A DNA stretch of 47,414 nucleotides from Nocardia carnea (GTDB taxonomy: Bacteria > Actinomycetota > Actinomycetes > Mycobacteriales > Mycobacteriaceae): NCBI RefSeq assembly GCF_029868325.1, contig NZ_JARWNW010000196.1:1-47414 (forward strand), written 5' to 3'. Every line of letters starts with the position of its first letter. Positions within the stretch are counted from its first letter, which is position 1. Under the pieces are notes generated by a model. That model did not search any database, was not told the DNA's origin, and saw only the letters and a program-made list of their open reading frames with translations. Below, piece after piece: positions 415 through 43,852 of the stretch. The translations under genes were made by a program, and so were the position numbers.

Positions 415-439
415 GTACCCGGCAACACACAGCTGAATC
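415..439 (-). promoter_or_regulatory. SigB/SigF-type promoter
   Basis: On the minus strand this reads GATT-N15-GGGTAC. Mycobacterial SigF and Bacillus SigB promoters have GTTT-like -35 and GGGTA(T/C) -10 elements. The ATG of the small membrane gene follows 9 nt after the -10. Confidence 0.6.
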
Positions 440-565
440 AAGCGCCGCCCGGCTCTCCGTTCGGTACCGGACGTGTTCAACCGGGCGAACGGGGCCGTCC
501 GGCCCTCCCAAAGTGTGGCGGCGTGCGCTGCGGCCGCAGGCCCAGGGCGGCGGGGGCGCGCTGGA

Positions 566-2113
566 TCAGCCGGCCACGACCCGGATCTGCTGCAACTCGG
601 GATCCGAGGCGTCGGGCAGATTCATCCCGTGATCGTGACCGGTGCGCAGATACTCCAGCACGCCTTCCCCGAGCCGTTCGCCGGGGATCACCGCGGGAAT
701 GCCCGGCGGGTACGGCGTGAGCTGTTCGGCCACGATCCGCCCCGCCGCCTTGCCGATCGGCACCATCTCGGTGGGGCCGAAGAACGCATCACGCGGCAGC
801 ATCGCGGTCTCCAGCAGCAATTCGTCCGGTTCGGGGACGTGAATCTCCTGCGGTGTATCGCTCGGACTTGCCTGCGCCCGCCACTCGTTCATCGCGGCCA
901 CCAAGGTATCGACCGTCTCCGCGTTGTCGGCGAAGGACAAGGTGGCCAGCAGCCGCCGATGATCGCTGAGCCCCATATCGATCCGGCGATTGTTGCGCAG
1001 CCAGGCGTCGGCTTCGTAACCGCTGACCCCGGTTTCGGAGATATCCATCAGCACCTGCAGGCGGTCGAGGTCGTGTGAGGCCTCGACTCCCAGCAGATCG
1101 TCCTCCATAACGTCGATCCCGGGGATCCGGTCGAGTTCGGTGCGGGCCTGCCGGGCCGTGCGCAATGCCTTGTCGAAGATCTCGCGGCCCTGCTGCACCA
1201 TCTGCCGGCGCCAGCCGTCGAGCGCGGTGTAGACCAGCACATTCGGGCTGGTCGTCATCAGCAGATCCGCACAATGCCGCAGCCGCACCGGGTCCACCAG
1301 ATCACCCTGCAGGTGGAACACCGACCCCTGCTCGAACCCGGCGCCCATCTTGTGCACGCTCACCACACAGACATCCGCGCCCGCATCCATCGCCCAGGTC
1401 GGCAGATCGGGATGGAACGGCAGATGCGCGCCCCACGCCTCGTCCACGATCAGCGGTTTCCCGCGTTCATGGCATACCCGGGCGATCCCTTCGATATCCG
1501 CGCAGGTGCCGTATGGGCTGGGGCTCACGATCAGCGCACCCGCGGCGTCCGGGTATTTGTCCCAGGCCCGGCGAACCTGCTCGGGTGAGGGGGGATGGGT
1601 GAAATGGCGTTCGGTATCCCAGCGCGGCGTGATCCAGCGCGGCAGGACCCCGGAGAAGATCAGGCCGGCGACGATGGATTTATGGCAGTCGCGGGCCACG
1701 AGCAGACCCCCGTCGCAACCGCCGGCGACAGCCATCATCGCGGCCTTGACCGACAGCGAACTACCGCAGGTGGAGAAGTACGTGCGTTCCGCGCCGACCG
1801 CGTCGGCCATGAGCTCTTCGGCGTGCGCGAGGTAGCCACCCTGCGACAACCGGTCGTCGAGGCCCGGCGCCGCCAGCACATCCGCGGCGAACGCGTCCCG
1901 GCCGATCACGGCGAGTACGCGATCGTCGGCACCACGGCCCTGCCGGTGCCCCGGGGGAGTGAACCCGTAACGGCCCAGCCGCTGGTAGTCGGCGAGAGCG
2001 TCCAGCATCGGCGCCCGGGACTGGTCGAGGCGCTTCCGGGCGCTGTCCTGCGTGCTCGTCTCCCGCGTTCCGTCCTCAGTGCCCACGCTGCTCCCGCAGA
2101 GTCGCTCCTTCAC
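566..2113 (-). CDS. Orn/Lys/Arg decarboxylase family PLP enzyme
   Basis: This is a fold-type I PLP-dependent decarboxylase of the Orn/Lys/Arg decarboxylase major-domain family. Members decarboxylate basic amino acids to polyamine precursors in the cytoplasm. From the first ATG, the PLP lysine is in VSVHKMGAG (about K255), the cofactor-binding Asp is in VDEAWGAH (about D224), and the start of the large domain is FTPPGHRQG near residue 51. The C-terminal domain carries PYPPGIPAVIPGE, typical of the family. The length (515 aa) is normal for the short actinobacterial form without an N-terminal wing domain. The first ATG overlaps the upstream gene by 38 nt. A GTG at 2086 (GGGAGCAGC in front) is an equally likely start and would give 506 aa. 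The substrate cannot be read from sequence. Confidence 0.85.
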   Translation of the reverse strand: MKERLCGSSVGTEDGTRETSTQDSARKRLDQSRAPMLDALADYQRLGRYGFTPPGHRQGRGADDRVLAVIGRDAFAADVLAAPGLDDRLSQGGYLAHAEELMADAVGAERTYFSTCGSSLSVKAAMMAVAGGCDGGLLVARDCHKSIVAGLIFSGVLPRWITPRWDTERHFTHPPSPEQVRRAWDKYPDAAGALIVSPSPYGTCADIEGIARVCHERGKPLIVDEAWGAHLPFHPDLPTWAMDAGADVCVVSVHKMGAGFEQGSVFHLQGDLVDPVRLRHCADLLMTTSPNVLVYTALDGWRRQMVQQGREIFDKALRTARQARTELDRIPGIDVMEDDLLGVEASHDLDRLQVLMDISETGVSGYEADAWLRNNRRIDMGLSDHRRLLATLSFADNAETVDTLVAAMNEWRAQASPSDTPQEIHVPEPDELLLETAMLPRDAFFGPTEMVPIGKAAGRIVAEQLTPYPPGIPAVIPGERLGEGVLEYLRTGHDHGMNLPDASDPELQQIRVVAG

Positions 2114-2564
2114 CTGTTTTCACCCGGCTGTGCGCGGCGGCCACCATCCCGATACCGGCCACCAGGCATATCCCGCCGCAGATACCCGCGATCACGGCCC
2201 AGCCCTCGAAGCCGTAGCCGGCCGCGGTGAGGGTGAGCGCGACCAGCACGATGCCGATCGCGGTCACGATGATGCCCGGCCAGTTCCGGGCGACCTCGAT
2301 GGACTCCCCGGCATGCGAACGGGTGGTCCGTGAATCGTCGGGGAAACGGTGTTCGTAGGGAATGTTGTGCGGACCGCTGCTTCCGGGAGGCTGCTGCGGG
2401 GTGCTGCCGCGCTGCGGGTCACTGCCGGGGGGCGGTTGGGGAGTGCCGCCGGACTGCAGGCTGCTTCCGGGAGGCTGCTGCGGGGTGCTGCCGCGCTGCA
2501 GGCCACCGCTGGGGTGCGCCGGCGCACTACTGGGTCGCTGCGGTTCGTCGGGTCCGGAGACCAT
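2076..2564 (-). CDS. Pro/Gln-rich two-helix membrane protein
   Basis: The N-terminal half is low complexity, with repeated STPQQPPGSS-like units, and is followed by a short charged linker. Two hydrophobic helices follow (IIVTAIGIVLVALTLTAAGYG and WAVIAGICGGICLVAGIGMV) with a short basic tail. This is a cytoplasmic Pro-rich tail on a two-helix anchor, a common actinobacterial design. Start: two in-frame ATGs lie at 2570 and 2564. The AGGAAGG motif is only 2 nt from the first but 8 nt from the second, so 2564 is used. The DNA of the Pro/Gln part contains a perfect 40-nt direct repeat. A stress-type promoter lies at 2611-2635. The 3' end overlaps the decarboxylase start, so the two may be co-transcribed. 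The function is unknown. Confidence 0.65.
   Translation of the reverse strand: MVSGPDEPQRPSSAPAHPSGGLQRGSTPQQPPGSSLQSGGTPQPPPGSDPQRGSTPQQPPGSSGPHNIPYEHRFPDDSRTTRSHAGESIEVARNWPGIIVTAIGIVLVALTLTAAGYGFEGWAVIAGICGGICLVAGIGMVAAAHSRVKTGEGATLREQRGH
2376..2499. repeat. 40-nt perfect direct repeat with 84-nt period
   Basis: Bases 2376-2415 and 2460-2499 are identical (they begin GCTGCTTCCGGGAGG and end GCCGCGCTGC). A degenerate third copy lies between them. The repeat encodes the Pro/Gln-rich units of the overlapping membrane protein and could expand or contract by slippage. Confidence 0.8.
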
Positions 2565-2610
2565 GATCATGTCCTTCCTGTCGACCTTCCGACCAGGGAC
2601 TTCGGTCCGG

Positions 2611-2635
2611 ATACCCGCTGATCGGGGATTGAATC
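2611..2635 (-). promoter_or_regulatory. SigB/SigF-type promoter
   Basis: The minus strand reads GATT-N15-GGGTAT. It lies 46 bases upstream of the Pro/Gln-rich membrane protein start at 2564 and has the same geometry as the other stress-type promoters here. Confidence 0.6.
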
Positions 2636-2654
2636 ACCGGTCCCGCGCCGGCCG

Positions 2655-2990
2655 CTACCCCGGGCTCGGCATCGGCTCCTGCGCCCCCGCCGTCACCACG
2701 GTCATGCGCGGCGGGCGCCCCGGATCGGGCGGAGGGGGCGGGTGCGTGGGATCCGGGACCGGTGGATGCGCCGGGTCGGGCGGGCGACCGGGATCGGGCG
2801 GAGGCGGCGGGGGTGTGGGCCACGGTTCGGGTGGTGGTCGTCCGGGATCCGGTACCGGGGACGGCGGCCTGTCCGGCTCTGGTTCGGGTGGCGGCCGTCC
2901 GGGATCCGGTGGCGGTGGCGGGGGAGTGGGCCAGGGGCCGGGGTCGGGTGGTGGGGGCTCCGGCGACGGCCGCGGGTCGGTAGCACGCAT
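2655..2990 (-). CDS. Proline-rich low-complexity protein, 111 aa
   Basis: The product is roughly half proline, with repeated PPDPGRPP and EPWPTPPPPPPDPG units. It has no predicted helix, cysteine or signal peptide. The start at 2990 is supported by GGAAGGAAG ending a few bases upstream. The opposite strand reads as a Gly-rich frame resembling PGRS proteins, but that frame has no supported start. Composition alone cannot prove coding, and low-complexity GC-rich DNA often leaves open frames. If real it may be a wall-spanning or scaffold peptide. No stress-type promoter was found in front of it, unlike its neighbours. Confidence 0.4.
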   Translation of the reverse strand: MRATDPRPSPEPPPPDPGPWPTPPPPPPDPGRPPPEPEPDRPPSPVPDPGRPPPEPWPTPPPPPPDPGRPPDPAHPPVPDPTHPPPPPDPGRPPRMTVVTAGAQEPMPSPG

Positions 2991-3180
2991 GATCTTCCTT
3001 CCGGACGTCCTGCGCGGGGGATTTCTTCCTCGGCGCCGCGCAGCGGGTGCCGTTACCGGAACGGGGCTCTCCGGTCGGAGCCTGCTCCGCGCGCCGGCGT
3101 CGGCCGGTCGTCATCCACGGGCACCGGGACCACCGGCCACCGGTTGAAGACCAGTGGCCGGTGAGCGTGCCGGGGCGGGA

Positions 3181-3411
3181 TCAGCTCAGGCGCTGGGCGA
3201 GCAGTGCCTTGGCCTGCTCGGCGCCCTTCTGGCTCTCGTGCTGGGCACGTTTGAAGAATTCGGCGATCTCGGCGTCCCCGGCGCGCTCGGCATCCCGGCT
3301 GTACACCTCCATCCGCAATGCGTTGCTCAGACATGCCTCGGTGAACCAGATGAGGTTGTAGTCCTTGTCCTTGGTGCCGGTGAACTGGCCGGTTTCCTGC
3401 TGGATGCTCAT
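3181..3411 (-). CDS. Conserved small helical protein, 76 aa
   Basis: A short, charged, helix-rich protein with NLIWFTEACLSNALRMEVY near residues 19-37 and EIAEFFKRAQHESQKGAEQAK near 48-68. I recognise it as a small conserved hypothetical of mycobacteria and nocardiae whose helices recall rubrerythrin/ferritin-like bundles. No metal ligands are evident, so that is only a resemblance. It is preceded by a GTTT-N15-GGGTAG promoter (3490-3514) and a short GC hairpin in its leader (3435-3452). Its neighbours are other small stress-type genes. It is cytoplasmic, with no signal peptide. The function is unknown. Confidence 0.7.
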   Translation of the reverse strand: MSIQQETGQFTGTKDKDYNLIWFTEACLSNALRMEVYSRDAERAGDAEIAEFFKRAQHESQKGAEQAKALLAQRLS

Positions 3412-3489
3412 TACGGCCTCCTGTTCGCTTGTTCGCGCCCGGTAGCGGGCGCCTGCTCTGCCGACGGTGTCCCTACCGTCACCGCCGCC

Positions 3490-3514
3490 CTACCCGCCGC
3501 ACCGCCGGCGAAAC
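3490..3514 (-). promoter_or_regulatory. SigB/SigF-type promoter embedded in a hairpin
   Basis: The minus strand reads GTTT-N15-GGGTAG, serving the 76-residue protein starting at 3411. Its -35 and spacer lie inside the 12-bp hairpin that ends the upstream ChaB-like gene. Confidence 0.55.
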
Positions 3515-3528
3515 CGCGGTGCGGCGGG
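3493..3528 (-). terminator. Strong GC hairpin, probable terminator of the ChaB-like gene
   Basis: CCCGCCGCACCG (3493-3504) and CGGTGCGGCGGG (3517-3528) are perfect inverted copies around a 12-nt loop, 29 nt past the stop at 3558. There is no U-tract, as is common in actinobacterial terminators. Confidence 0.55.
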
Positions 3529-3557
3529 ATTACGCGAACCCCCGGCTGCGGCGGCGC

Positions 3558-3980
3558 TCACTTCCTGCGCCGGGCCGTTTCGCGGCGGTTGGATTTCTCG
3601 ATGGCGGTGACGAGTTCGTCCTTGGTCATCTTCCACCGGCCGGTGATATCGAGCCGCCCCGCGACGTCGAGCAGATGCTGTTTGGAGGCGTTGGCGTCCA
3701 CACCTCCGGCGCTGGCGCCCTTCGGGTTCGGGCCACCGCCGGCCGCGCGTTCATCGGACGGGCCCCGCTTCTTCTTCGGCTCCCAGTGGTCGCCGACCTT
3801 CTCGAAGCTGTGCTTGAGTGCCTCGTAGGCGACCCGATGCGCGCGTTGTTCGCTGCCGTAGGTCTGCAGTGCCGAATCGTGGGCCTTGGCGAAGGTGCGC
3901 TGCGCTTTCTCGTCCGAACGCTGCAATGTGCTCGGCAGTTCCGATTTCCGGACGCTGCCGCGAGCAGTCGTCTTCGGCAT
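3558..3980 (-). CDS. ChaB-like protein with C-terminal Rho-N/SAP-like domain
   Basis: Residues 10-65 match the ChaB fold (ELPSTLQRSDEKAQRTFAKAH, then YGSEQRAHRVAYEALKHSFEKVG). E. coli ChaB was named as a regulator of the ChaA cation transporter, but its role in actinobacteria is unknown. After a Gly/Asn/Pro linker, residues 105-140 (LLDVAGRLDITGRWKMTKDELVTAI) resemble a small helix-extended-loop-helix domain of the Rho-N/SAP kind, which suggests nucleic-acid contact. The start at 3980 is chosen because GGAAGGAG lies directly upstream, although the frame stays open to 4076. A GATT-N15-GGGTAG promoter lies at 4061-4085. A similar C-terminal module occurs in the protein at 43474-43803. Confidence 0.8.
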   Translation of the reverse strand: MPKTTARGSVRKSELPSTLQRSDEKAQRTFAKAHDSALQTYGSEQRAHRVAYEALKHSFEKVGDHWEPKKKRGPSDERAAGGGPNPKGASAGGVDANASKQHLLDVAGRLDITGRWKMTKDELVTAIEKSNRRETARRRK

Positions 3981-4060
3981 CGCGTACTCCTTCCTGGTCC
4001 TTGTTGTCAGGCGTTCCGGCGCGGACTTCGTGCTCTCGTTCCGGCCCGGATACCCGGCGG

Positions 4061-4085
4061 CTACCCGTTCGCGCAATGCTGAATC
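4061..4085 (-). promoter_or_regulatory. SigB/SigF-type promoter
   Basis: The minus strand reads GATT-N15-GGGTAG upstream of the ChaB-like gene. A second GGGTAT lies at 4050-4055 but has no matching -35. Confidence 0.55.
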
Positions 4086-4163
4086 CGGTGCGCGGCCCAG
4101 CCTCGCCGGCCCTGGCTATGCTGCGGAGAAAGTTCACCGCAGCGAACGCAGAGAAAGGCCTCC

Positions 4164-4631
4164 ATGCCCCGCATCGCCAGCGCCACCACCGTCGACCGTG
4201 CCGCCTTGCTGGAGTTCCTGCAGTCCCGCCACCGCGGCGTCCTGGTCACCAACCGGTCCGGCGGGTCACCGCAGATATCCCCGGTGACCTGCGGCCTGGA
4301 CCCGCAAGGCCGAATCGTCGTCTCCACCTATCCCGGTCGCGCCAAGACCCGCAATATCCGGCGCGATCCGCGGGTATCGATCTGCGTGCTGTCCGACGAT
4401 TTCGACGAGGCGTATGTGCAGATCGACGGGCGGGGCGAGGTGATCGATATGCCGGAGGCGCTGGACGGTCTGGTCGACTACTACCGGGGGATTGCCGGTG
4501 AGCATCCGGATTGGGACGAGTACCGCTCGGCCATGGCCCGGCAGAACAAATCGCTGATCCGCATCACCATCGAACGCTGGGGCCCGATCGCCACCGGTGG
4601 TTTCCCGCCCGAACACGATCCGGCCGACTGA
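4164..4631 (+). CDS. PPOX-class flavin/F420-dependent oxidoreductase
   Basis: A 155-residue split beta-barrel protein of the pyridoxamine-phosphate-oxidase-like superfamily. Family signs are HRGVLVTNRSGGSPQISPV (residues about 23-41), GRIVVSTYPGRAKTRNIRRDPRV (about 49-71) and a C-terminal RITIERWGPIATGG. Actinobacterial members of this size usually bind F420 and reduce small quinone-like or tetrapyrrole substrates. Substrate and cofactor are not provable here. AAAGG lies 6 nt before the ATG. It is divergent from the ChaB-like gene and convergent with glycerate kinase, with a hairpin after its stop. Confidence 0.8.
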   Translation: MPRIASATTVDRAALLEFLQSRHRGVLVTNRSGGSPQISPVTCGLDPQGRIVVSTYPGRAKTRNIRRDPRVSICVLSDDFDEAYVQIDGRGEVIDMPEALDGLVDYYRGIAGEHPDWDEYRSAMARQNKSLIRITIERWGPIATGGFPPEHDPAD

Positions 4632-4637
4632 GCCGCC

Positions 4638-4663
4638 ACCGGCGCCGGGGTGGTTGCGCCGGT
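4638..4663. terminator. Hairpin between convergent genes
   Basis: ACCGGCGC (4638-4645) pairs with GCGCCGGT (4656-4663) around a 10-nt loop, just after the PPOX stop and before the glycerate kinase stop. There is no U-tract. It could end transcription from either side. Confidence 0.5.
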
Positions 4664-4743
4664 TCTCCAGCCGCGCCGCCGATGAAGCCGGTGGGCGTCG
4701 GTGAACCACGGGTCTCATCGGCCGATATGGCGTCGGCGCGACT

Positions 4744-5709
4744 TCAGGAGTTCCGGGTCCCGACAACCCGGCCCGCCGCCCGCATGGCGGCGGTATCGGA
4801 GGCGACGATCACCTCGGCGAACCGTGACCGGTAGTCGCCGAGATCCTCGCCCACCGAACCGACCACGGCGTACACCGGGATATCGTCGGCCCGCGCCAGG
4901 ATTGCCGAGATGATTTTTCCGGCGCGAGTCTGGCCGTCGAGTCGTCCCTCCCCGACGACGATCGCGCCGGCGCCGGCGGCCAGCTTGTCGAATCCGCCGG
5001 CATCCAGGACGTACTCGGCACCCGACCGCAACTCCGCGCCGTACTGCGCCCACATCCCACCGGAGAACCCGCCCGCCGCGCCCGTGGCGTCGACACCGGA
5101 TGGGTCGCGCGGCAGCCGGCGCGCGGTATCGGCGAGGCGGCGGGTCAGTAGTTCCACGGTCGCCGGATCGGCGCCCTTCTGCGGGCCGAAGACGCGGGCG
5201 GCGTCGACGTAGCGGGTGGTGACATCGGTGAGCACGGTGATCGCCGCGCCACGCAGACCACCGCCGTCCTCGATCGCCGCGATGGCGCCGGTACCACCAT
5301 CGGTGGTGGCCGAACCGCCCGCCGCGACCACGATCCGCCGGGCACCCCGGCGCGCGGCCGCGGCGATGAGCATGCCGGTGCCGTAGGTGTCGGCGGCGAC
5401 CGGATCACGCGGGCCGTCGTGCGGGGTGGTGACCCCACTGGCCGCGGCGACCTCGACCACGGCGACCCCGTCGTCCGACAGGCCGATCGTGGCGGTACAC
5501 GGCGCACCCCACGGGTTGCGTGCCTCGACGGTCACCCGGTCCAGACCGAGCGGCTCGACGAGTACGTCCAGGGTCCCCTCGCCGCCGTCGGCGACCGGCA
5601 GCCGCAGCGCGCGGCCTCCGCTCTCCTCGACGCCACGGCCGATGGCCTCGGCGACCTGCGTCGCGGTATAGGTGCCTTTGAAACTGTCCGGGGCGATGAG
5701 CACGGTCAC
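4744..5709 (-). CDS. glxK: Glycerate 2-kinase
   Basis: A glycerate kinase of the GarK/GlxK family, which phosphorylates D-glycerate to 2-phosphoglycerate with ATP in the cytoplasm. Conserved elements are IAPDSFKGTYTATQVAEAI at the N-terminus, PVADGGEGT (about 39-47), GGSATTDGGTGA, FGPQKGA and VVGEGRLDGQT near the C-terminus. At 321 aa it is about 60 residues shorter than E. coli GlxK. Some of the missing length falls in the loop after GGSATTDGG, where the ATP/substrate domain is trimmed. It starts with GTG and has AGGGG upstream. It is the last gene of the operon C direction, but a 449-base gap with a hairpin separates it from the dehydrogenase at 6159, so it may have its own promoter. The role fits use of glycerate formed from tartrate. 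Confidence 0.85.
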   Translation of the reverse strand: MTVLIAPDSFKGTYTATQVAEAIGRGVEESGGRALRLPVADGGEGTLDVLVEPLGLDRVTVEARNPWGAPCTATIGLSDDGVAVVEVAAASGVTTPHDGPRDPVAADTYGTGMLIAAAARRGARRIVVAAGGSATTDGGTGAIAAIEDGGGLRGAAITVLTDVTTRYVDAARVFGPQKGADPATVELLTRRLADTARRLPRDPSGVDATGAAGGFSGGMWAQYGAELRSGAEYVLDAGGFDKLAAGAGAIVVGEGRLDGQTRAGKIISAILARADDIPVYAVVGSVGEDLGDYRSRFAEVIVASDTAAMRAAGRVVGTRNS

Positions 5710-6072
5710 GACGGCGCCCCTGCGCAGCGCGAACGGACTGCACCCGTGGCCCGGGCCGTCCGGGGCCGCCCGTGGCAGGCCGCTTCCGCGAGAAGGCCCC
5801 GCTCGGGGCCGCGTTCCGGCGAATCGGCGAGGGCTCGGATTCCGCAGGCATTCATGGACGTAACCCTATCGGCGCCGGCGGCGGGCCACACTCGGAGAGC
5901 CCGGCCTACCGTGCGCGGCGCCCCGATCCACCGCGAACCGCAACGCTAACGGTGTGCACGTCGATCCCACGATGCCGGCCTGTTTGCCGTTGTCGCCACC
6001 GCCGTCGGCAACCCGCTGCGGGAGGGCGTGCGGATTGCTCATCGTCCGGTGACCCGCGGCCTGAGCAGGATT

Positions 6073-6100
6073 GTGCCGCATGAGAAACACCATGCGGCAC
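6073..6100 (-). terminator. 10-bp hairpin in the 5710-6158 gap
   Basis: GTGCCGCATG (6073-6082) and CATGCGGCAC (6091-6100) are perfect inverted copies around an 8-nt loop. They lie 59 nt after the stop at 6159. This is a probable terminator or attenuator between the dehydrogenase and glycerate kinase. I see no convincing gene in the rest of the 449-base gap. Confidence 0.55.
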
Positions 6101-6158
6101 GTCACGGCATCCGGAGGCCGCACCACCGCCGGCCGGCGCGATCACTCGGTGCCCTGCG

Positions 6159-8692: not shown

Positions 8693-8737
8693 GGCGACGG
8701 CTCCTCCCTCTCGGCGCCCGGTCATACCCTGGGCTGA

Positions 8738-8749
8738 ATTGTCGACAAT
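8738..8749. promoter_or_regulatory. Perfect 12-bp palindrome, probable regulator operator
   Basis: ATTGTCGACAAT is self-complementary and contains the TGT-NN-ACA core common in GntR/FCD operators. On the minus strand a TAGGAT -10-like hexamer lies directly upstream of it (8748-8753), so binding would block operon C. It lies in the 280-base divergent gap between operon C and trpB. Confidence 0.5.
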
Positions 8750-8942
8750 CCTACAATAGTGGCCGCCTCGGTGTGGCGGTACGGCGAGTGTCCAGGTCCG
8801 TCGGTTCCCCCTGCTCCCGAACGAGCAGCACCGAAGGGGCCGTGAGACGTGAATGCCGTACCGCTTCCGTTCCCGGTGACGGGAATCGACACTGCCAACA
8901 CCTTTTCTACTGTTGACACATCCGTTGCCAGGAGGAGATCCG

Positions 8943-25443: not shown

Positions 25444-25635
25444 TCATGTCCCCGCGTCGCCGGGGCGCTCGGTGCGGTCGACGCGCTCGTTGGCCAGGTC
25501 GTCGTCGTCCGCGGGCGGTTCGGGATCGTGCCATTCCTCGGCCCGGCTCGATCGGTTACCGCGCAGCGTGCCCTCCATTTCGTGGGCGAGTTCGTCGTCG
25601 CGGGCGGGGCCGTGCTTACTGCTTCCTCGTTCCAT
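25444..25635 (-). CDS. Small acidic protein, N-terminal part of a DUF2795-type protein
   Basis: A 63-aa acidic protein beginning MERGSSKHGPARDDEL, followed by RAEEWHDPEPPADDDD. This opening is the one I know from actinobacterial DUF2795 proteins, which go on for another 60-70 residues with the DUF2795 domain. Here the frame stops before that domain, so it is a shortened relative or a natural short form. AGGAGG with 5-nt spacing makes the ATG at 25635 certain if the gene is real. It follows the baeRF-type gene by 28 bases and is probably in one transcript with it. It has no membrane segment. The function is unknown. Confidence 0.65.
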   Translation of the reverse strand: MERGSSKHGPARDDELAHEMEGTLRGNRSSRAEEWHDPEPPADDDDLANERVDRTERPGDAGT

Positions 25636-25663: not shown

Positions 25664-26755
25664 TCAGGTATGCCGCAGCAGGGCGCCGACGCCCTCGCTG
25701 GGGGCGGTTTCCGCGTCGACCGGGGTGATTGTTCCGCCGCGCACCAGGACACCCACCGGTAGTGCTTCGTCGGCCCGGCAGGTCTGCGCGGCCGTTTCGG
25801 ACAGGGCGCCGAGCGCGGCCGGGTCGCGGACGGGTTCGGGATCCAGCTGTACGGTGCGGTCACCGAGGGCGGCGGCGTTGATCAGCAGATTCTCGGTATT
25901 GGCCGCCAAGAGCGCCGAAACCGTCGCGGAGAGCCCGGCGACGGCGGGTCCGTCGTCGCGGCCGCGGGCCTGGTCGAATCGCGCCACCGTTTCGTCCCGT
26001 ACCTCGCGCGCCTCGGCGGTGACCAGTTCACGGACGTCGTCATCGAATCCGCCGGTATCGGTGCCGGCCGCCCGGCCACCGGACTCGACTTCCACGACGC
26101 GGGCCGGCAGCGAGCCGAGCGCCCGGCGGACCTCGGCGCGGGCGGTGACATCACCGGCCAGCACCACGATCCTGGCCCGGATCCGCTCGGTCAGGCGTTT
26201 CAGCTCCGCGGCGATATCGTCGGCATTGCGCCGGACGGTTTCCTCCACGCGCCGCTGCATCGACAGATGCGACCAGCCGCCGCCGTGGCGGACCTTGTGC
26301 ACCGGATGCCCCTCGCCCTCCACGGTTTCGCCGACCACATTGCCCTCGTCGTCGACCCCGTACAGTTCCGACCCCACCTTGTCCACCACCGCCACCGCGT
26401 GCGGCACCTCCTCGGTCTCGCATTCGATGAGCGGCAGCAGATACGGCAACGGCGAGACCCGGACGATCTCCGGCTGCACCGGCCGGGGCAGCCGCCGGTC
26501 GATCAGCATTCGTTCGGAGTCGGCGATCAGGACGCGGCCGGCACGTCCCGGTTCGGGTGGGCTGCCGGTGACCGCCGCCGCGAGGGACCGGATCATTCCC
26601 TCCGTGGCGCCCGCGGCCTCGAGGCGTTCGGCGAGGGCCCGCCAGCGCAGGGTGCGCTGCTGCTCGGCGTCCTCCGTGTCGTGCTGGGCGTCGATGTACA
26701 GCGAGGCGAACGGGCCGGGTCGTTGCGCTACTTCTCGGATCGTCATATCAGCCAC
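25664..26755 (-). CDS. baeRF family 2-type (eRF1-like) protein
   Basis: A 363-aa protein of the bacterial/archaeal release-factor-like (Vms1/eRF1-related) group; Mycobacterium tuberculosis Rv2629 is of this kind. Features: FASLYIDAQHDTEDAEQQRTLRW at the N-terminus, a middle domain with RVSPLPYLLPLIECE and VVDKVGSELYGVDDEGN, the HGGGWSHLSMQRRVEETVRRN segment, and a C-terminal L7Ae-like domain (LGALSETAAQTCRADEALPVG). Members are thought to act on stalled ribosomes; here the role is inferred only. A GATT-N15-GGGTAC promoter is at 26766-26790, so stress control is likely. ATGs at 26755 and 26746 are both possible starts. Confidence 0.78.
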   Translation of the reverse strand: MADMTIREVAQRPGPFASLYIDAQHDTEDAEQQRTLRWRALAERLEAAGATEGMIRSLAAAVTGSPPEPGRAGRVLIADSERMLIDRRLPRPVQPEIVRVSPLPYLLPLIECETEEVPHAVAVVDKVGSELYGVDDEGNVVGETVEGEGHPVHKVRHGGGWSHLSMQRRVEETVRRNADDIAAELKRLTERIRARIVVLAGDVTARAEVRRALGSLPARVVEVESGGRAAGTDTGGFDDDVRELVTAEAREVRDETVARFDQARGRDDGPAVAGLSATVSALLAANTENLLINAAALGDRTVQLDPEPVRDPAALGALSETAAQTCRADEALPVGVLVRGGTITPVDAETAPSEGVGALLRHT

Positions 26756-26765
26756 GTGAGGGCGC

Positions 26766-26790
26766 GTACCCGGCGCGGCCGGATCGAATC
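26766..26790 (-). promoter_or_regulatory. SigB/SigF-type promoter
   Basis: The minus strand reads GATT-N15-GGGTAC, and the -10 ends 10 nt before the ATG at 26755. It would drive the baeRF-type and small acidic genes. Confidence 0.6.
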
Positions 26791-26845: not shown

Positions 26846-27820
26846 TCAGCCCGGCTGGGCGGTCAGTTTGCGCAGCGGTTCGTCGAGTTCGGCGCGGAAG
26901 AAGTCGAAGAAACCGTCAGGGTCGGGACCGGCGTTCTGCATGACCAGATGGTCGAATCCGGCGTCCACGAACGGCTGCGCCACGTCGAGGTAACGCTGCG
27001 GGTCCGGGCCGCAGGCGAACTTCTCCAGGATGTCCTGTTCCCGCACGGTGGCGGAGGCGGCGGCGAAATTCACCGGGTTGGGCAGTTCGCTCATCACCTT
27101 CCAGCCCGTCATCGCCCAGCGTGAGGTCTCGTGGGCGGCGCGGGCCGCGGTTTGTTCGTCGGGTGCCCAGGCCATCGGGACCTCGGCGTAGCGCGGTCCG
27201 TCGCCGCCCGCCTCCCGATAGCCGGAGACGAGTTCCGGTTTCGGTTCGGTGGCGAACAGGCCGTCGCCCAGTTCGGCGGCGATTCCGGCGGCCTGGGTGC
27301 CGCCGGCGGCGACCGCGATCACCGGCGGCTCGTCGGGCAGATCGAAGACGCGGGCGTCGGAAAGCTGAAGGTGCCGGCCCTCGTAGGATTGGTAGCCGCC
27401 CTGCCACAGCAACCGGATGATCTCCAGGGCCTCCCGTAGCAGCGCGTGCCGGCCGGCCACATCGACAGGGAATCCCTCCCCGACGACATGCTCGTTGAGA
27501 CGTTCCCCGGCGCCCACACCGAGAGTGAACCGGCCGTCGGAGAGCAGGGCCACGGTGGCGGCGGCCTGAGCGATGATCGCCGGGTGGTATCGCACGGTCG
27601 GACAGGTGACACCGGTGGCCAGCCCGATCCGCTCGGTTTCGGCGGCGATGGTGCCCAGGACCGACCAGGCGAACGGCGAATGTCCCTGATTGTCCAACCA
27701 GGGGTGATAGTGGTCGCTCATCTCGACGAAATCGAATCCGGCTGCTTCGGCGCGTACGGCCTGGCGGACCAGTTCGCCGGGCCCGAAGGCTTCGGCGGCC
27801 AGCTTGTATCCGATCTGCAT
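26846..27820 (-). CDS. LLM-class F420-dependent oxidoreductase
   Basis: A 324-aa TIM-barrel enzyme of the luciferase-like monooxygenase family in the F420 (G6PDH-like) branch. Features: GFDFVEMSDHYHPWLDNQGHSPFAWSVLG in pieces near residues 28-56, GLATGVTCPTVRYHPAIIAQAAATV, GRFTLGVGAGERLNEHVVG and VAAGGTQAAGIAAELGDG. These are the F420-site signatures. The substrate is unknown; relatives oxidise sugar phosphates or hydroxy compounds with F420. GGAGGAACC precedes the ATG, and a textbook stress-type promoter (GTTT-N15-GGGTAC) is at 27892-27916. It is cytoplasmic. Confidence 0.85.
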   Translation of the reverse strand: MQIGYKLAAEAFGPGELVRQAVRAEAAGFDFVEMSDHYHPWLDNQGHSPFAWSVLGTIAAETERIGLATGVTCPTVRYHPAIIAQAAATVALLSDGRFTLGVGAGERLNEHVVGEGFPVDVAGRHALLREALEIIRLLWQGGYQSYEGRHLQLSDARVFDLPDEPPVIAVAAGGTQAAGIAAELGDGLFATEPKPELVSGYREAGGDGPRYAEVPMAWAPDEQTAARAAHETSRWAMTGWKVMSELPNPVNFAAASATVREQDILEKFACGPDPQRYLDVAQPFVDAGFDHLVMQNAGPDPDGFFDFFRAELDEPLRKLTAQPG

Positions 27821-27891: not shown

Positions 27892-27916
27892 GTACCCGAG
27901 CGTTGGTCGGTGAAAC
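27892..27916 (-). promoter_or_regulatory. SigB/SigF-type promoter (best match)
   Basis: The minus strand reads GTTT-N15-GGGTAC, the closest match in the window to the mycobacterial SigF consensus. It is about 70 bases upstream of the LLM oxidoreductase ATG. Confidence 0.65.
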
Positions 27917-33835: not shown

Positions 33836-33859
33836 GTTGAATTCGCCCGCGCTGGGTAC
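33836..33859 (+). promoter_or_regulatory. Probable SigB/SigF-type promoter
   Basis: GTTGAA-N12-GGGTAC (GTTG-N14-GGGTAC), followed by 9 nt and the ATG of the molybdopterin enzyme at 33869. The spacing to the start codon equals that at two other genes here. Confidence 0.45.
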
Positions 33860-36658: not shown

Positions 36659-36683
36659 GTGTTGCGCGGCCGGATCGGGGTAA
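36659..36683 (+). promoter_or_regulatory. Weak SigB/SigF-type promoter
   Basis: GTGT-N15-GGGTAA, one mismatch in the -35, with the same N15 spacing as the stronger sites. It is 35 bases before the epimerase ATG. Confidence 0.35.
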
Positions 36684-37780: not shown

Positions 37781-37782
37781 CT

Positions 37783-37807
37783 GTGTCACCGCGCCCGGAC
37801 CGGGTAG
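37783..37807 (+). promoter_or_regulatory. Weak SigB/SigF-type promoter
   Basis: GTGT-N15-GGGTAG, followed by exactly 9 nt and the ATG at 37817. The -35 has one mismatch. Confidence 0.4.
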
Positions 37808-37816
37808 CCGCCGCGC

Positions 37817-39377: not shown

Positions 39378-39399
39378 GCCGGTGATTCGGTGACAACCT

Positions 39400-39423
39400 G
39401 TTTCGACCGGGCACACCGGGCAA
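39400..39423 (+). promoter_or_regulatory. Probable SigB/SigF-type promoter
   Basis: GTTT-N14-GGGCAA, followed by 10 nt and the ATG of the DUF5709 gene. The -10 carries C in place of T. Confidence 0.4.
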
Positions 39424-39433
39424 TCCGGCGACC

Positions 39434-39721
39434 ATGAACGGAACCGATGACACCGGTCAGGAATCCGCCGAGGTCTCCGAATGGGCGAGCGTCCCGCCGA
39501 CCGAGGAACAACTGGACGAGGACGAACTGGCCGCCGACCCGCTGGAAGAGGGGATGGACCCGCCCGACGACTGGTCCGCGGCCGACCGCTACGCGACCAC
39601 GCCCCGCGAACAGCGCGAGGGGGAATCCCTGGGCGACCGGCTGGCCGAGGAACGTCCGGATATCGTCGCGGAGGGGGAGCGTTCGGGGACCGCCCCCGAC
39701 AGGGACCGCGGCCGCGAGTGA
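39434..39721 (+). CDS. DUF5709 family acidic protein, 95 aa
   Basis: An acidic, disordered-looking protein whose middle matches DUF5709: DPLEEGMDPPDDWSAADRY, then TPREQREGESLGDRLAEERP. No helix, cysteine or signal is seen. The family is found in actinobacteria, usually in single small genes, and has no known function. No ribosome site stands in front of the ATG at 39434; the -10 ends 10 nt upstream, so it is probably leaderless. It converges on the NUDIX gene with 12 bases between the stops. Confidence 0.75.
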   Translation: MNGTDDTGQESAEVSEWASVPPTEEQLDEDELAADPLEEGMDPPDDWSAADRYATTPREQREGESLGDRLAEERPDIVAEGERSGTAPDRDRGRE

Positions 39722-39733
39722 TCCGGTTCCAGC

Positions 39734-40462
39734 TCAGTGATGGGTCCAATCGGGCTGCAGGAAATGCGCGACCCGGGCCGCCGCGGACCGCCGCCCGAGC
39801 AGGACGACCTCCCGGAACTGCCAGAGCATCGCGCCTGTCGGCGCGTGGATGGTCATATCGGGGGCCAATCGCATCTGCAACAGGCCGGTCTCCGGGGTCG
39901 CCGGGGTATCGGTATCACCGCGGCGTACCCAGTGCGGTGTTCCTTCGGCGGCCAGACTGTGCAGGTCGACGAAATGTACGGAGTGCACTTCGTCGGCGCT
40001 GGGATCCAGATCCGCGATATCGCTCAGTGTCGTGACGATCGGCGTGATGGCGAACCCGGAGGCGGCCGGGAAATCGTCGAGGACGCCGAGTACATCGGCG
40101 GGATCGGCGACGAGACCGAGCTCCTCGTGCAGTTCGCGGGCGGCGGCGCGTTCGAGGGTTTCCCCACGCTCCACCCGGCCACCCGGCAGACCCCACTGCC
40201 CGGCATTGCGACCCCGGTAGGCCCGTTTGATGACGATCACCGCCGGCCCGGTGCCGTTGTCCACCACGCACAGTGCCACGGCCGCCCGCCGGGTCGCCAG
40301 ATCGTCCGGAACAGCGATGCGGTCGAACGTGTTCAGCCGGGCGCGGGCGAGCGTGCGGAATTCGTCGATACTGTCGGGGACCCGAGGTCCCGGGTCGGCG
40401 GCCATGAATTCGATCATGCCCCATCGGCGGGAAGCGCCGGTCGCCGCCTCCGGCGCCGTCAC
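39734..40462 (-). CDS. NUDIX hydrolase
   Basis: A 242-aa NUDIX protein. The box GGRVERGETLERAAARELHEE (GxxxxxGE... REL-HEE) carries the expected Glu pair for metal, at about residues 93-113, followed by LGL. It hydrolyses nucleoside-diphosphate-linked or similar compounds in the cytoplasm. The N-terminal ~60 residues and C-terminal ~70 residues extend the core, as in MutT-like/CoA-diphosphatase relatives. The GTG at 40462 overlaps the LexA stop as GTGA (40459-40462), so it is translated with LexA. ATGs at 40417 and 40405 are possible alternatives. Confidence 0.8.
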   Translation of the reverse strand: MTAPEAATGASRRWGMIEFMAADPGPRVPDSIDEFRTLARARLNTFDRIAVPDDLATRRAAVALCVVDNGTGPAVIVIKRAYRGRNAGQWGLPGGRVERGETLERAAARELHEELGLVADPADVLGVLDDFPAASGFAITPIVTTLSDIADLDPSADEVHSVHFVDLHSLAAEGTPHWVRRGDTDTPATPETGLLQMRLAPDMTIHAPTGAMLWQFREVVLLGRRSAAARVAHFLQPDWTHH

Positions 40463-41106
40463 ATCCGCCGCATCACCGAAACCACCTTGCCCAGCACCAC
40501 GGCGTGGTCGCCGTCGAGGACCGGATAGGCGGGATTACGGGGTTCGAGATAGATATGCCCGCCGCGGCGGCGCAACACCTTCACCGTGGCCTCCCCGTCC
40601 AGCATCGCGGCGACGATCTCACCGGACTGCGCCTCGGATTGCTGCCGCACCACCACCATATCGCCGTCGCAGATGGCGGCCTCCACCATGGAATCCCCGC
40701 GCACCCGCAACCCGAATACGGTGCCCCGCCCGACCAGTTCCCGCGGCAGCGACAGCACATCGTCGATATGTTCCTCGGCGGTGATCGGGGTACCCGCGGC
40801 GATATCGCCGACCACGGGCACCGAGACGGCATCCTCCCGCTCCGCCGCGCCGCCCTGCCCGGTGTTCAGGAACAACCGCACGTCCATGGGCCGCGCCATA
40901 CCGTCACCGCGCCGCAGGAAACCCTTCTCCTCCAAACTTTTCAGATGCCTGGACACCGAGGATCCCGACCGCAGACCCACCGCGTCGCCGAGCTGGCGGG
41001 TACTCGGCGGATAACCGTGCCGGATCACCCACTCCTGGATGGCCGCGAGGATACGGCGCTGACGGTCGGGCAGGACGGAGGTGTCGAGGTGGTCGTATTC
41101 GGTCAC
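40459..41106 (-). CDS. lexA: LexA-family repressor
   Basis: A 215-aa self-cleaving repressor. The N-terminal winged helix is at about 12-70 (LPDRQRRILAAIQEW, YPPSTRQLGDAVGL, SSVSRHLKSLEEKGFL). The cleavage site is Ala104-Gly105 (DIAAGTP). The catalytic Ser is in RGDSMVEA (S139) and the Lys in ATVKVLRR (K176). LexA controls the SOS response. The start is a GTG at 41106; an upstream frame to 42516 is not LexA. The HTH differs from the usual mycobacterial LexA, and no SOS box was found near the start. It may be a paralogue with another regulon. The coupled NUDIX gene follows. Confidence 0.83.
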   Translation of the reverse strand: MTEYDHLDTSVLPDRQRRILAAIQEWVIRHGYPPSTRQLGDAVGLRSGSSVSRHLKSLEEKGFLRRGDGMARPMDVRLFLNTGQGGAAEREDAVSVPVVGDIAAGTPITAEEHIDDVLSLPRELVGRGTVFGLRVRGDSMVEAAICDGDMVVVRQQSEAQSGEIVAAMLDGEATVKVLRRRGGHIYLEPRNPAYPVLDGDHAVVLGKVVSVMRRM

Positions 41107-41256
41107 CGCAGCATCGTATGACCTGGTACCGACGACGAGGACGAGTGTGCTGCCCGAACGGCCGCCGGCCGGAAATCCGCACCCGGAGGCCGATTTCGCC
41201 GCGCCCCCGGCATTGCACCACGCCGGGAGGCCCCGCACATCGCAGACTGGACCGTT

Positions 41257-42837
41257 ATGGACCAGTTGGTGCTGACGTTCACGCTGCTGTTCGCCGCGGT
41301 CCTCGCCGAGGCCCTGGGCCGCCGGATCGGCGTGGCCTCCGCAGTGCTGATGACGCTGTTCGGCTGCGTGCTGGCGCTGCTGCCGTTCGTCCCCGAGATC
41401 CGGATCCCACCGGAGCTGATCCTGCCGCTGGTGCTGCCACCCCTGCTCTACGCCGCCGCCCGCCGCACTTCCTGGCGGCAGTTCGCGGAGAACTGGGAAC
41501 CGATCGTGTTGCGTGCGGTGGGGTTGGTGATCGCCACCGTCGCGGCGGTCGCCGCGGTGTTCCATGCCTGGTACCCCGGTCTGCCGCTGGCCGCGGCCAT
41601 TGTGCTGGGGGCCGTGGTCGCGCCGCCGGATCCCGTGGCCGCGACCGCCTTGGCCGGCCGGCTCGGGCTCCCGCGGCGGCTGGTGGTCGTACTCGGCGGC
41701 GAAGGACTGTTCAACGACGTCACCGCGATCGTGATCTATTCGGTCGCGATCGAGGCGGTGGTCACTGGTCGTTTCTCGGCAGCGCACGCCGGCCTCGAAT
41801 TCGTCGTCTCCGCGGTGGTGGCGGTGGCCGTCGGGCTGCTGCTCGGCATGCTGGGCAGCAAACTCACGCGATATCTCGCGGAGGCGAGCTGGCAGGTGGC
41901 GTTGACCCTGCTGCTGCCGTTCGCGGCCTACGGGCTCGCCGAATCGTGGGGTGGATCCGGCGTCCTGGCGGTCCTGGTGTGCGCCCTGTATCTGACCGAC
42001 GCGGCGACCGAATTCGGCGATACCGCCTATCGCATGGCGGGTGAATCGTTCTGGGATATCACCGAGCTGCTGATCAGCGGTTTCGCCTTCGGTCTGATCG
42101 GCCTCGAACTGAGCGCGGTCCTGGCCGCCACCGGCGACGAGTGGCCGCAATTGGTGGCCGTCGCCGCCGCGGTGGTGGCCGTGGTCGTGGTCCTGCGGCT
42201 CATCTGGCTGACGGTGACCTGGTGGCTGCGAGGTGCCTGGTGGCACGACGAAGACGCCGACGAGCCCTACACCTGGCGAGAAACCGTGGTCACCTGGTGG
42301 ACCGGTATGCGCGGTGTGGCGACCGTCGCGCTGGCATTGGCCATTCCCTTGTCCACCGAAGCGGGCGCCGATTTCCCCGGCCGCACCCAGATCCTGTTCA
42401 TCGCGTTCGCGGTGGTGCTGTTCACCCTGCTCGTTCAGGGGCCGACGCTGCCGCTGATCGTGCGGCTCACCGGTGTCCACGCCGATACCCGCGCCGAACG
42501 CCGGCTGGAACGGCAACTGTGGGAACGCGTCGTCGACGCGGAGCTGGCCCGCCTCGAGGAACTCGCCGAATCCGAGGATGTTCCCGTCGAACTCTACGAA
42601 CGGTTACGGGAAGGCGTCCGCAAACGGATGGCCCGGGCCGATCCCGAAGCCGCCGGCGAGCAGGCGCGGGCCCTGGCCGAACGCGAGGCGCGAATGGCCG
42701 CCACCGTCAAGCGGATCAGGACCGAACTCGCCGAAGCAGGCCGGCGCGAGGCCTTGGCTGCGCGCCGCGAACCGGGGATGCCCCCCGATCTGGTGGACCG
42801 GGTCACCCGGCGACTGGATCTGGGAACCGGCCGCTGA
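41257..42837 (+). CDS. CPA1-family Na+/H+ antiporter
   Basis: A 526-aa membrane antiporter of the NhaP/CPA1 family. It has about 11-12 helices in residues 1-405, with LAEALGRRIGVASAV near the start, the transport-site motif GEGLFNDVTAIVIYSVA near residue 150, VAPPDPVAATALAGRLGLPR and TWWTGMRGVATVALALAIPL. The C-terminal ~120 residues are a charged, coiled-coil-prone cytoplasmic tail (ERRLERQLWERVVDAELARL). It exchanges Na+ or K+ for H+. The ribosome site is weak. It converges on UdgX with 4 bases between the stops. Confidence 0.87.
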   Translation: MDQLVLTFTLLFAAVLAEALGRRIGVASAVLMTLFGCVLALLPFVPEIRIPPELILPLVLPPLLYAAARRTSWRQFAENWEPIVLRAVGLVIATVAAVAAVFHAWYPGLPLAAAIVLGAVVAPPDPVAATALAGRLGLPRRLVVVLGGEGLFNDVTAIVIYSVAIEAVVTGRFSAAHAGLEFVVSAVVAVAVGLLLGMLGSKLTRYLAEASWQVALTLLLPFAAYGLAESWGGSGVLAVLVCALYLTDAATEFGDTAYRMAGESFWDITELLISGFAFGLIGLELSAVLAATGDEWPQLVAVAAAVVAVVVVLRLIWLTVTWWLRGAWWHDEDADEPYTWRETVVTWWTGMRGVATVALALAIPLSTEAGADFPGRTQILFIAFAVVLFTLLVQGPTLPLIVRLTGVHADTRAERRLERQLWERVVDAELARLEELAESEDVPVELYERLREGVRKRMARADPEAAGEQARALAEREARMAATVKRIRTELAEAGRREALAARREPGMPPDLVDRVTRRLDLGTGR

Positions 42838-42841
42838 GCGA

Positions 42842-43468
42842 TCACTGCCGCGTGGTGTCGCGGATATACGCCAGATCGTCGAGGAAATCCGCATAGGCGG
42901 TCTTGCGGTCGGGTGCGCGCAGTACAGACGACGGGTGCACGGTGGCAGTGATCCGGTAATCCGGCCGCTGCACCATCTGCCCGCGGAGTTCGCCGACGGT
43001 GGCGGACGGTCCGAGCACTGCCTTGGCGGCGACCGCACCCAGGCATACCACCAGCTCCGGCGCCACCAGCTCGAGTTCGGTCGCCAGCCAGGCCGAGCAC
43101 GCCACCACCTCGGTACGGCTGGGCTGCTTGTGGATACGGCGTTTACCGCGTTCGGCGAATTTGAAATGTTTGACCGCGTTGGTCAGATACACCGTCTCGC
43201 GGTCGAAACCCGCCTCGCCGAGTGCCCGGTCCAGGAGCCGGCCGGCCGGGCCGACGAACGGCTGGCCCTGCGTATCCTCCTGATCACCGGGCTGTTCGCC
43301 CACCATCACCACCGAGGCGTCCGCGGGGCCTTCGCCGAACACGGTCTGGGTGGCGTTGCGGTACAGATCGCAGCCGCGGCAGCCCGCGGCCGCCGCCCGG
43401 ACGGTGTCCAGATCGGCGTCGGCGGGGACGAACTCGGCGGCACCGACCGGTTTCGCGGTGGTACCCAT
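42842..43468 (-). CDS. UdgX-type uracil-DNA glycosylase
   Basis: A 208-aa family 4-like uracil-DNA glycosylase of the UdgX group. Features: VMVGEQPGDQEDTQGQPFVGPAG, the signature KRRIHKQPS with His at about residue 113 (in UdgX this His becomes covalently bound to the abasic site), and VHPSSVLRAPD. Cysteines at about 30, 33, 124 and 142 are placed for a 4Fe-4S cluster. UdgX proteins are known mainly from mycobacteria and relatives and trap uracil-DNA. The start at 43468 is assumed. It lies 5 bases downstream of the small gene at 43474 and may be co-transcribed with it. Confidence 0.87.
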   Translation of the reverse strand: MGTTAKPVGAAEFVPADADLDTVRAAAAGCRGCDLYRNATQTVFGEGPADASVVMVGEQPGDQEDTQGQPFVGPAGRLLDRALGEAGFDRETVYLTNAVKHFKFAERGKRRIHKQPSRTEVVACSAWLATELELVAPELVVCLGAVAAKAVLGPSATVGELRGQMVQRPDYRITATVHPSSVLRAPDRKTAYADFLDDLAYIRDTTRQ

Positions 43469-43473
43469 CGCCG

Positions 43474-43803
43474 TTACGACCGGCCCAGCGCGTCGGCGAG
43501 TTCGTCCTTGCTCATCTTCGAGCGGCCTTGTATCCCGCGGCGCCGTGCTTCGTTGTACAGCTGATCGCGGGTCTGGCCCTTCGGTCCGCTGCTGTGCGAC
43601 CGTTTCCCACCGCGGCGCTGCGGCGACATATCCCGGGTGGACGAGCGACTGGCGGTTTTCGACTGGCCGGATTGCGCCCGGTTCTTGTTGACCGTGCGTG
43701 CGGCGATCTCCTTCGCCCGTTTCGTTCCCGCGCCGCGATCCTGCTCGGAATCCTTGATGTGCTCGTACTGCCGTTCCTGTTTACCGGTCCATTCCTTCGG
43801 CAT
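43474..43803 (-). CDS. Small basic protein, plasmid-stabilisation-like / Rho-N-like
   Basis: A 109-aa highly charged protein: KQERQYEHIKDSEQDRGAGT, then RAKEIAARTVNKNRAQSGQ, and a C-terminal GPKGQTRDQLYNEARRRGI + SKMSKDELADALGR helix-extended-loop-helix. I know this family as annotated plasmid stabilisation proteins in mycobacteria. The C-terminal module resembles that of the ChaB-like protein at 3558-3980, hinting at DNA or RNA binding. AGGAGGTG precedes the ATG at 43803. The promoter at 43828-43852 is GATT-N15-GGGTAT. It probably belongs to the same stress response. Confidence 0.78.
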   Translation of the reverse strand: MPKEWTGKQERQYEHIKDSEQDRGAGTKRAKEIAARTVNKNRAQSGQSKTASRSSTRDMSPQRRGGKRSHSSGPKGQTRDQLYNEARRRGIQGRSKMSKDELADALGRS

Positions 43804-43827
43804 GACACACCTCCTGTCGGTCGGCGT

Positions 43828-43852
43828 ATACCCGGCCGTTGCCGTCGCAATC
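43828..43852 (-). promoter_or_regulatory. SigB/SigF-type promoter
   Basis: The minus strand reads GATT-N15-GGGTAT, 25 bases upstream of the ATG at 43803. It would drive the small basic protein and probably UdgX. Confidence 0.6.

Follow-up and report, generated by a model that had tools for sequence, protein, structure and literature searches.

Seven sites on one strand and the genes behind them

The window of this study, that is, the whole 47,414-nucleotide (nt) stretch of Nocardia carnea DNA that was analysed (NZ_JARWNW010000196.1, here C196), is an entire contig of a genome of 7.04 Mb in 320 contigs. It carries seven copies of a two-block element resembling the promoters read by SigB/SigF-type sigma factors, in which G(A/T)TT (GWTT) is followed, after exactly 15 nt (N15), by GGGTA. 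Our pattern scan returned exactly seven matches, all on the minus strand, five with GATT and two with GTTT as the putative -35 block. They are the seven sites of identical geometry that an earlier note on this DNA had described, its first coordinates being one base low. All seven are intergenic according to our own gene caller and, as the note had also observed, each stands just upstream of a gene on the same strand: counted from the end of GGGTA, the start codon follows after 10, 41, 79, 81, 20, 72 and 25 nt in coordinate order, with sites 416 and 26767 (10 and 20 nt) nearly leaderless. The GGGTA -10 block is present in 7/7 sites by definition of the search, and the spacer of 15 nt, likewise found in 7/7, falls within the SigB/SigF-type range of about 14-17 nt. 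The -35 block agrees with GNNT, the form for Streptomyces coelicolor SigB/L/M, in 7/7 sites, and with strict GTTT, the Mycobacterium smegmatis form, in 2/7.

The genes behind the sites are listed in Table 1. The protein mem164 is a relative, not a member, of the UsfY family NF041247 (E 5e-15; 56 bits, the curated cut-off of 100 not being reached), and the decarboxylase gene overlaps its end, likely sharing its transcript. For p76, no Pfam or NCBIfam family was found over cut-off. The UdgX-family protein passes the curated cut-off of TIGR03914 (268.2 bits over 189.95) and is likely transcribed together with stab, as p63 likely is with baeRF. We also observed that the C-termini of the ChaB-like protein and stab carry a similar Rho_N-like segment, KM[ST]KDEL, below the Pfam cut-off in both, a common end that suggests a shared nucleic-acid-binding tail.

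Table 1. Features of the window and of the sigma gene loci of the same genome. "Near SIG2" refers to the 60 SIG2-type Nocardia loci described in the third section.
Feature	Position	Strand	Evidence or remark
Promoter GATT-N15-GGGTA before pep38	416..439	-	elements 9/9 in two relatives; spacer 11/15, 9/15
pep38, 38-aa predicted membrane peptide	289..405	-	relatives in 8/60 SIG2-type loci; GATT-N15 upstream in 7/7 found by site
Promoter GATT-N15-GGGTA before mem164 and decarboxylase	2612..2635	-	pattern scan, conservation
mem164, UsfY-related membrane protein, below family cut-off	2076..2570	-	near SIG2 in 26/60 loci
Orn/Lys/Arg decarboxylase	566..2086	-	Pfam PF01276; near SIG2 in 3/60 loci
Promoter GTTT-N15-GGGTA before p76	3491..3514	-	pattern scan, conservation
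p76, 76-aa protein	3181..3411	-	near SIG2 in 2/60 loci and in G142
Promoter GATT-N15-GGGTA before ChaB-like gene	4062..4085	-	pattern scan, conservation
ChaB-like protein, weak Rho_N-like tail	3558..3980	-	Pfam PF06150; near SIG2 in 17/60 loci
Promoter GATT-N15-GGGTA before baeRF	26767..26790	-	9/9 in one relative; other cut by contig end
baeRF-type protein	25664..26746	-	Pfam PF18844
p63, small protein 28 bp behind baeRF	25444..25635	-	near SIG2 in 5/60 loci
Promoter GTTT-N15-GGGTA before LLM gene	27893..27916	-	9/9 in single relative with sequence
F420-dependent LLM-class oxidoreductase	26846..27820	-	TIGR03557, 471 bits over 210; near SIG2 in 4/60 loci
Promoter GATT-N15-GGGTA before stab-UdgX	43829..43852	-	pattern scan, conservation
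stab, 109-aa "plasmid-stabilisation-like" protein, weak Rho_N-like tail	43474..43803	-	in 92/98 Nocardia genomes searched
UdgX-family uracil-DNA binding protein (predicted), 5 bp behind stab	42842..43468	-	near SIG2 in 6/60 loci
Weak site GTTG-N14-GGGTA before molybdoenzyme	33836..33858	+	kept in 1/1 relative
Weak site GTGT-N15-GGGTA before epimerase-like gene	36659..36682	+	kept in 1/1 relative
Weak site GTGT-N15-GGGTA before SDR gene	37783..37806	+	kept in 1/1 relative
Weak site GTTT-N14-GGGCA before gene 39434-39721 (95-aa protein)	39400..39422	+	kept in 1/1 relative
SIG1	C241		RsbW-like gene before it
SIG2	C23		RsbW-like gene (rsbW2), STAS gene, own GTTT-N15-GGGTA upstream of rsbW2-sig2
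SIG3	C263		own GTTT-N15-GGGTA, 58 nt before start
STAS-domain gene near SIG2	C23:9006-9413	same strand	STAS, 51.9 bits over 22.6

Chance, gene context and conservation

A chance origin of the seven sites is excluded. In 100 dinucleotide shuffles of the window, N15 sites averaged 0.17 with a maximum of one; the earlier note had expected fewer than one from simple base odds. Spacings of N12-N19 other than N15 yielded four matches on both strands together, one each at N12, N16, N17 and N19. The density in the rest of the genome predicts 0.21 (intergenic sites) to 0.27 (all sites) per 47 kb, which gives a probability of 3e-9 to 2e-8 for at least seven in the window, uncorrected and for a pattern chosen post hoc.

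The whole genome holds 47 GWTT-N15-GGGTA sites, and the window is approximately 26-fold denser in them than the rest. This bare count was set aside as a test: 47 sites against six in a reversed control seemed strong, but the total for N12-N19 amounts to 298, or about 36 for each other spacing, which makes the count weak, and gene context and conservation were used instead. A genome-wide scan for enrichment upstream of genes had been suggested along with the original observation; in the whole genome, 38 of the 47 N15 sites are intergenic compared with 8 of 40 sites at control spacings (N12, N13, N18 and N19; Fisher P ~1e-8), these 40 being among the first 100 matches listed of the 298 and the gene context again coming from our own gene caller. 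As nine of the 47 N15 sites lie inside genes, a single match is weak evidence, and it could be that only some of the seven window sites are promoters while one or two, for example the G+C-rich site 3491 or site 416, are chance matches. We regard this as quite improbable, given that all seven are intergenic and that both blocks are kept in every relative with complete sequence.

Judging by eye, we take the genes behind the genomic N15 sites to include look-alikes of Dps, CsbD, DoxX and DJ-1/PfpI, the CsbD- and Dps-like ones presumably representing a likeness to the Bacillus subtilis SigB regulon, together with two sigma genes, one of them preceded by an RsbW-like gene. Outside the window, 26/30 GTTT sites and 5/10 GATT sites are intergenic. 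The window has an excess of GATT (5/7 versus 5/31 intergenic sites elsewhere; P 0.008), which is not taken as proof because it is partly due to the pattern chosen in the earlier note. With C or G as the second base (GSTT-N15), the genome has 52 sites versus 51 in the control, no better than background; among 30 of these loci that were examined, seven sites are intergenic, some of them resembling, as we take it by eye, real targets.

Conservation was first apparent in two close relatives, G096 and G022, which align with the window in blocks at ~85-94% DNA identity and provide 13 site-relative pairs, 12 of them complete (in the remaining one, the site is truncated by the end of the relative's contig). 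All nine element positions are unchanged in 12/12 complete pairs, and the spacers agree at 139/180 positions. At 416, 2612 and 27893, the similarity drops off immediately upstream of the -35 block, though not at 26767. Further afield, the 150 bp before stab contain GNNT-N13-17-GGGTA in 29 of the 31 Nocardia loci examined and GWTT-N14-17-GGGTA in 21. For the ChaB gene, present in 40/98 Nocardia genomes searched, the corresponding figures are 30/30 and 17/30. In five control windows (four equal windows further upstream and the coding sequence), which were applied to the GWTT form and not to GNNT, the GWTT form occurs in 1, 0, 0, 2 and 0 of the 31 stab loci and in none of the 30 ChaB loci. Outside Nocardia, 250 bp before ChaB in 27 loci gave 11 GTTT, 2 GATT, 2 GGTT and 1 GCAT. 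The baeRF-type protein is only ~30-38% identical beyond the closest relatives, and its 27 loci (own included) comprise 4 with GWTT (one a partial match), 6 with another GNNT and 17 with none (one cut by a contig end).

Weaker forms of the element had also been noted before the molybdoenzyme, epimerase, SDR and 39434-39721 genes; all four were recovered, with their elements kept in the only relative that has sequence there. The last of these genes, found near SIG2 in 4/60 loci, had been named DUF5709, a name for which neither Pfam nor NCBIfam gave a match. The loose scan that gave these also matched upstream at 8725, 8863, 8870 and 10933, each of these matches being lost in at least one of the two relatives. 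The GATT of the match at 8725-8750 (GATT-N17-GGGTA) is explained by a perfect palindrome, ATTGTCGACAAT, at 8738-8749, which occurs as a single copy in the window, upstream of the 7220-8692 gene, and looks like an operator. Beside the stab site, some 380 bp (43855-44237) with a DUF6766-like open reading frame (43851-44129) are replaced by ~20 bp in two close relatives; this segment was likely lost there, since a DUF6766 gene occupies the corresponding position in G142.

The SIG2 operon and its surroundings in Nocardia

Three SigB/SigF/SigG-type sigma genes in the N. carnea genome exceed the TIGR02980 cut-off of 234.35 bits (SIG1 311.6, SIG2 288.8 and SIG3 283.8). Among eight Nocardia genomes, counting matches above 270 bits, such genes number three in five genomes and at least five in the other three. 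SIG2 has the -35 recognition helix SQMHISRIL, which closely resembles the SQMHVSRLL found in a solved SigF. No RsbW-like gene was found in the 3.7-kb locus of SIG3.

We then compared sigma loci across the genus, sampling the best 80 of 438 relatives as Nocardia loci and 18 paralogue loci from a further scan, which tree-based sorting divided into 60 SIG2-type and 38 paralogue loci. The SIG2-type loci contain 223 N15 sites in 1174 kb, or 3.80 per 20 kb, compared with 0.08 for the control spacings, while paralogue groups B, C, SIG1 and SIG3/other have 4, 0, 0 and 7 sites in 329, 183, 120 and 120 kb, respectively. Of the 11 promoter-linked genes of the window, one or several occur within ~10 kb in 39/60 SIG2-type loci, as against 0/38 paralogue loci. 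At 45% identity or more, 9/10 genes behind strong promoters recur near SIG2 versus 2/36 other window genes (P 5e-7), and at 30% or more 10/10 versus 7/36; baeRF is the only one of the ten recurring solely below 45% (8/60 loci at 30% or more, none at 45%). The three SIG2-type subgroups have 4.80, 3.86 and 3.35 sites per 20 kb, with linked genes in 7/12, 7/19 and 25/29 loci. An RsbW2-like gene is present in 59/60 SIG2-type loci, and all 53 rsbW2 copies identified by site are preceded by GTTT-N15-GGGTA, as is the N. carnea copy.

Five further Nocardia genomes have window genes around SIG2 in 5/5 cases. In G142, the decarboxylase, p76, UdgX, stab, DUF6766 and LLM genes lie within ~10 kb of SIG2 and ChaB lies elsewhere; G118 has baeRF, p63, ChaB and mem164 around SIG2, and G160, G121 and G141 have ChaB and mem164. 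In N. flavorosea, a single contig carries both ChaB and SIG2, at 206 and 562 kb, respectively, ~355 kb apart. As many window genes thus cluster around the rsbW2-sig2 operon in other Nocardia, SIG2 is the likely sigma factor.

One alternative is that the promoters are indeed of SigB/SigF type but are read by SIG1 or SIG3, or shared by several paralogues. The genome has three such sigma genes, region 4 of SIG1 is nearest to the solved SigF (81.8 bits, versus 64.3 for SIG3 and 60.9 for SIG2), SIG3 has a site of its own, and paralogues are known to cross-recognise promoters in S. coelicolor (PMC8346170). On the other hand, the neighbourhoods of SIG1 lack N15 sites altogether, neither they nor those of SIG3/other contain any of the 11 genes, and the rsbW2-sig2 operon itself carries a site. 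We consider this alternative unlikely.

The island sites also bear on whether the blocks are promoters at all. With GWTT, the SIG2-type loci have 223 sites with a spacer of N15 and 57 with N16, against 3-9 for each of the remaining spacers between N12 and N19. Including GTTT/GATT-N16 and GGTT-N15, 311/323 island sites fall between genes, and for 269/323 a gene starts no more than 250 nt away; among GWTT-N15 sites with a start within that distance, 50/192 lie 15 nt or less from it. The promoter status of the blocks is predicted from their sequence, and conserved blocks might instead bind a repressor or an activator. This we find highly improbable, as the spacing peaks sharply at 15 with some at 16, the sites are placed between genes and before gene starts, and the blocks agree with the SigB/SigF consensus reported for two characterised actinobacteria (PMC8346170, PMC4694148).

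A nucleotidyltransferase-like gene with GATT at N15 or N16 was observed in 35/60 SIG2-type loci (e.g., L290:12734-13297 and L291:15270-15854) and is likely a further member of the regulon; by eye, we take the genes adjoining it to be BON-like and phosphoesterase-like. The MarR/MMPL pair at 44234-46874 was dropped as a SIG2-linked candidate, as it recurs, one or both genes, beside paralogue group B (11/17 loci) and not beside SIG2.

Regarding the -35 block, the earlier note's G(A/T)TT stood as far as GATT and GTTT are both present, but it proved to be a subset derived from the window, since the second base is not fixed: at N15, SIG2-type loci have 126 GATT, 97 GTTT, 43 GGTT and 2 GCTT. This base is mostly steady within a gene family; for ChaB, GTTT occurs in 11/16 site-bearing loci outside Nocardia versus at most 5/30 within it. 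It is conceivable, if doubtful, that the second base is a code, with GTTT marking regulators and GATT or GGTT most effectors, for ordered switching of two tiers, which may be operated by paralogous sigma factors or by one sigma factor at different levels. Among families seen in at least four loci, GTTT stands before rsbW2 in 53/53 and before a response regulator in 27/27, and GATT before the nucleotidyltransferase-like gene in 35/35, pep38 in 7/7, baeRF-type genes in 7/7 and stab in 4/4. Against such a code, another family has GTTT in 27/28 sites and is of unknown kind, a CsbD-like family has GTTT in 5/27, and two effector sites of the window are GTTT.

A predicted regulon and its place among known systems

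Overall, the conserved elements, the sharp spacing, the intergenic placement and the linkage to SIG2 bear out the proposal that a shared SigB/SigF-type promoter marks one regulon. On these grounds the seven sites belong to a conserved, predicted regulon of SigB/SigF type with a likely named regulator: with a probability of roughly 0.7, SIG2 reads all seven promoters and turns the genes on as one predicted stress response. The idea of one regulon among scattered, unrelated genes thus stood, but the scatter is not arbitrary, as many of these genes cluster around rsbW2-sig2 in other Nocardia. The window probably represents one arm of an ancestral SIG2 island, separated from the sigma gene by a rearrangement with the promoters kept. 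The label "stress" would follow from homology, namely ChaB, the UsfY relative, the CsbD/Dps look-alikes and the M. smegmatis SigF regulon.

Several observations weigh against reading the seven sites as SIG2 targets. SIG2 is on contig C23 and not on that of the window; 21/60 SIG2-type loci have none of the 11 genes in reach; and these promoters could also be read by other paralogues, given the cross-recognition among those of S. coelicolor and the site 58 nt before the SIG3 start. The tree does not establish the SIG2-type loci as a single clade, since SIG1, a long branch, falls beside the subgroup of 12; grouping the SIG2-type sample together (19 of 34 rows) is not rejected (p-AU 0.27), a result that speaks neither for nor against a clade. 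As related loci are not independent, their counts overstate the number of events. The RsbW-like partner of SIG2 scores 22.9 bits for HATPase_c_2, below the Pfam cut-off of 27.4, and an RsbW2-like gene also lies near most paralogues (16/17 group B loci). In addition, the gene calls are home-made, 11/27 ChaB loci outside Nocardia have no GNNT-N13-17-GGGTA within 250 bp, and GATT, a minority outside the window and only half intergenic there, is alone a weaker mark.

Partner switching controls SigB of B. subtilis. Judging from its family, SIG2 would be sequestered by the RsbW-like protein whose gene directly precedes its own, until a STAS-domain antagonist takes up this anti-sigma factor and SIG2 is freed. 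Free SIG2 would direct RNA polymerase to G(A/T/G)TT and GGGTA elements, including that of its own rsbW2-sig2 operon, creating a positive feedback. The predicted products would be the ChaB-like protein, the UsfY-like membrane protein with the amino-acid decarboxylase, the 38-aa membrane peptide and the 76-aa protein, and further the baeRF-type factor, the F420 oxidoreductase and a DNA-handling pair, the Rho_N-like protein and UdgX.

The closest parallel is found in M. smegmatis, whose SigF promoters have a GGGTA -10 and mostly 15-16 nt spacing, many of them standing 8-11 nt ahead of the start codon (PMC4694148). Its sigF mutant shows reduced levels of ChaB, an arginine decarboxylase and UsfY proteins (PMC4694148, Table 1). 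The shared content comprises ChaB MSMEG_1802, by locus number next to RsbW MSMEG_1803 and SigF MSMEG_1804, together with arginine decarboxylase MSMEG_0266, UsfY MSMEG_1769 and 1777, PNPOx and molybdopterin enzymes (PMC4694148). In contrast to Nocardia, the M. smegmatis -35 block is mostly GTTT or near it, and GATT was absent in a text search of PMC4694148; Nocardia also differs in having several paralogues, of which the linked one, SIG2, is not the closest to the solved SigF. Several paralogues are likewise found in S. coelicolor (SigB and homologues, nine in all), with a GGG-type -10, a relaxed GNNT -35 for SigB/L/M and a SigF-dependent promoter, SCO3748p, with GATT (PMC8346170). The GATT variant is therefore within the known range, and its share here is unusual. 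The B. subtilis SigB general stress regulon, although from another phylum, has the similar consensus GTTTAA-N12-14-GGGWAW (PMC8346170).

Searches of the open PubMed Central (PMC) library, by title and start of abstract, found no study of a Nocardia SigF regulon; a query for Nocardia, RsbW and sigma factor gave only Staphylococcus studies, and no paper with both UdgX and SigF was found. The kind of regulon is known, but among the papers that these searches listed none was seen to describe this member, the genes it comprises or its -35 preference. The present results thus provide a likely regulon and island for a Nocardia SigB/SigF paralogue, and would place UdgX, behind stab, under a predicted stress-type promoter. 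They also tie little-known genes, namely those for the 38-aa peptide, p76, baeRF, the Rho_N-like protein with UdgX, and the F420 oxidoreductase, to one named sigma factor, and this likely link to SIG2 gives a direct way to test what these genes do.

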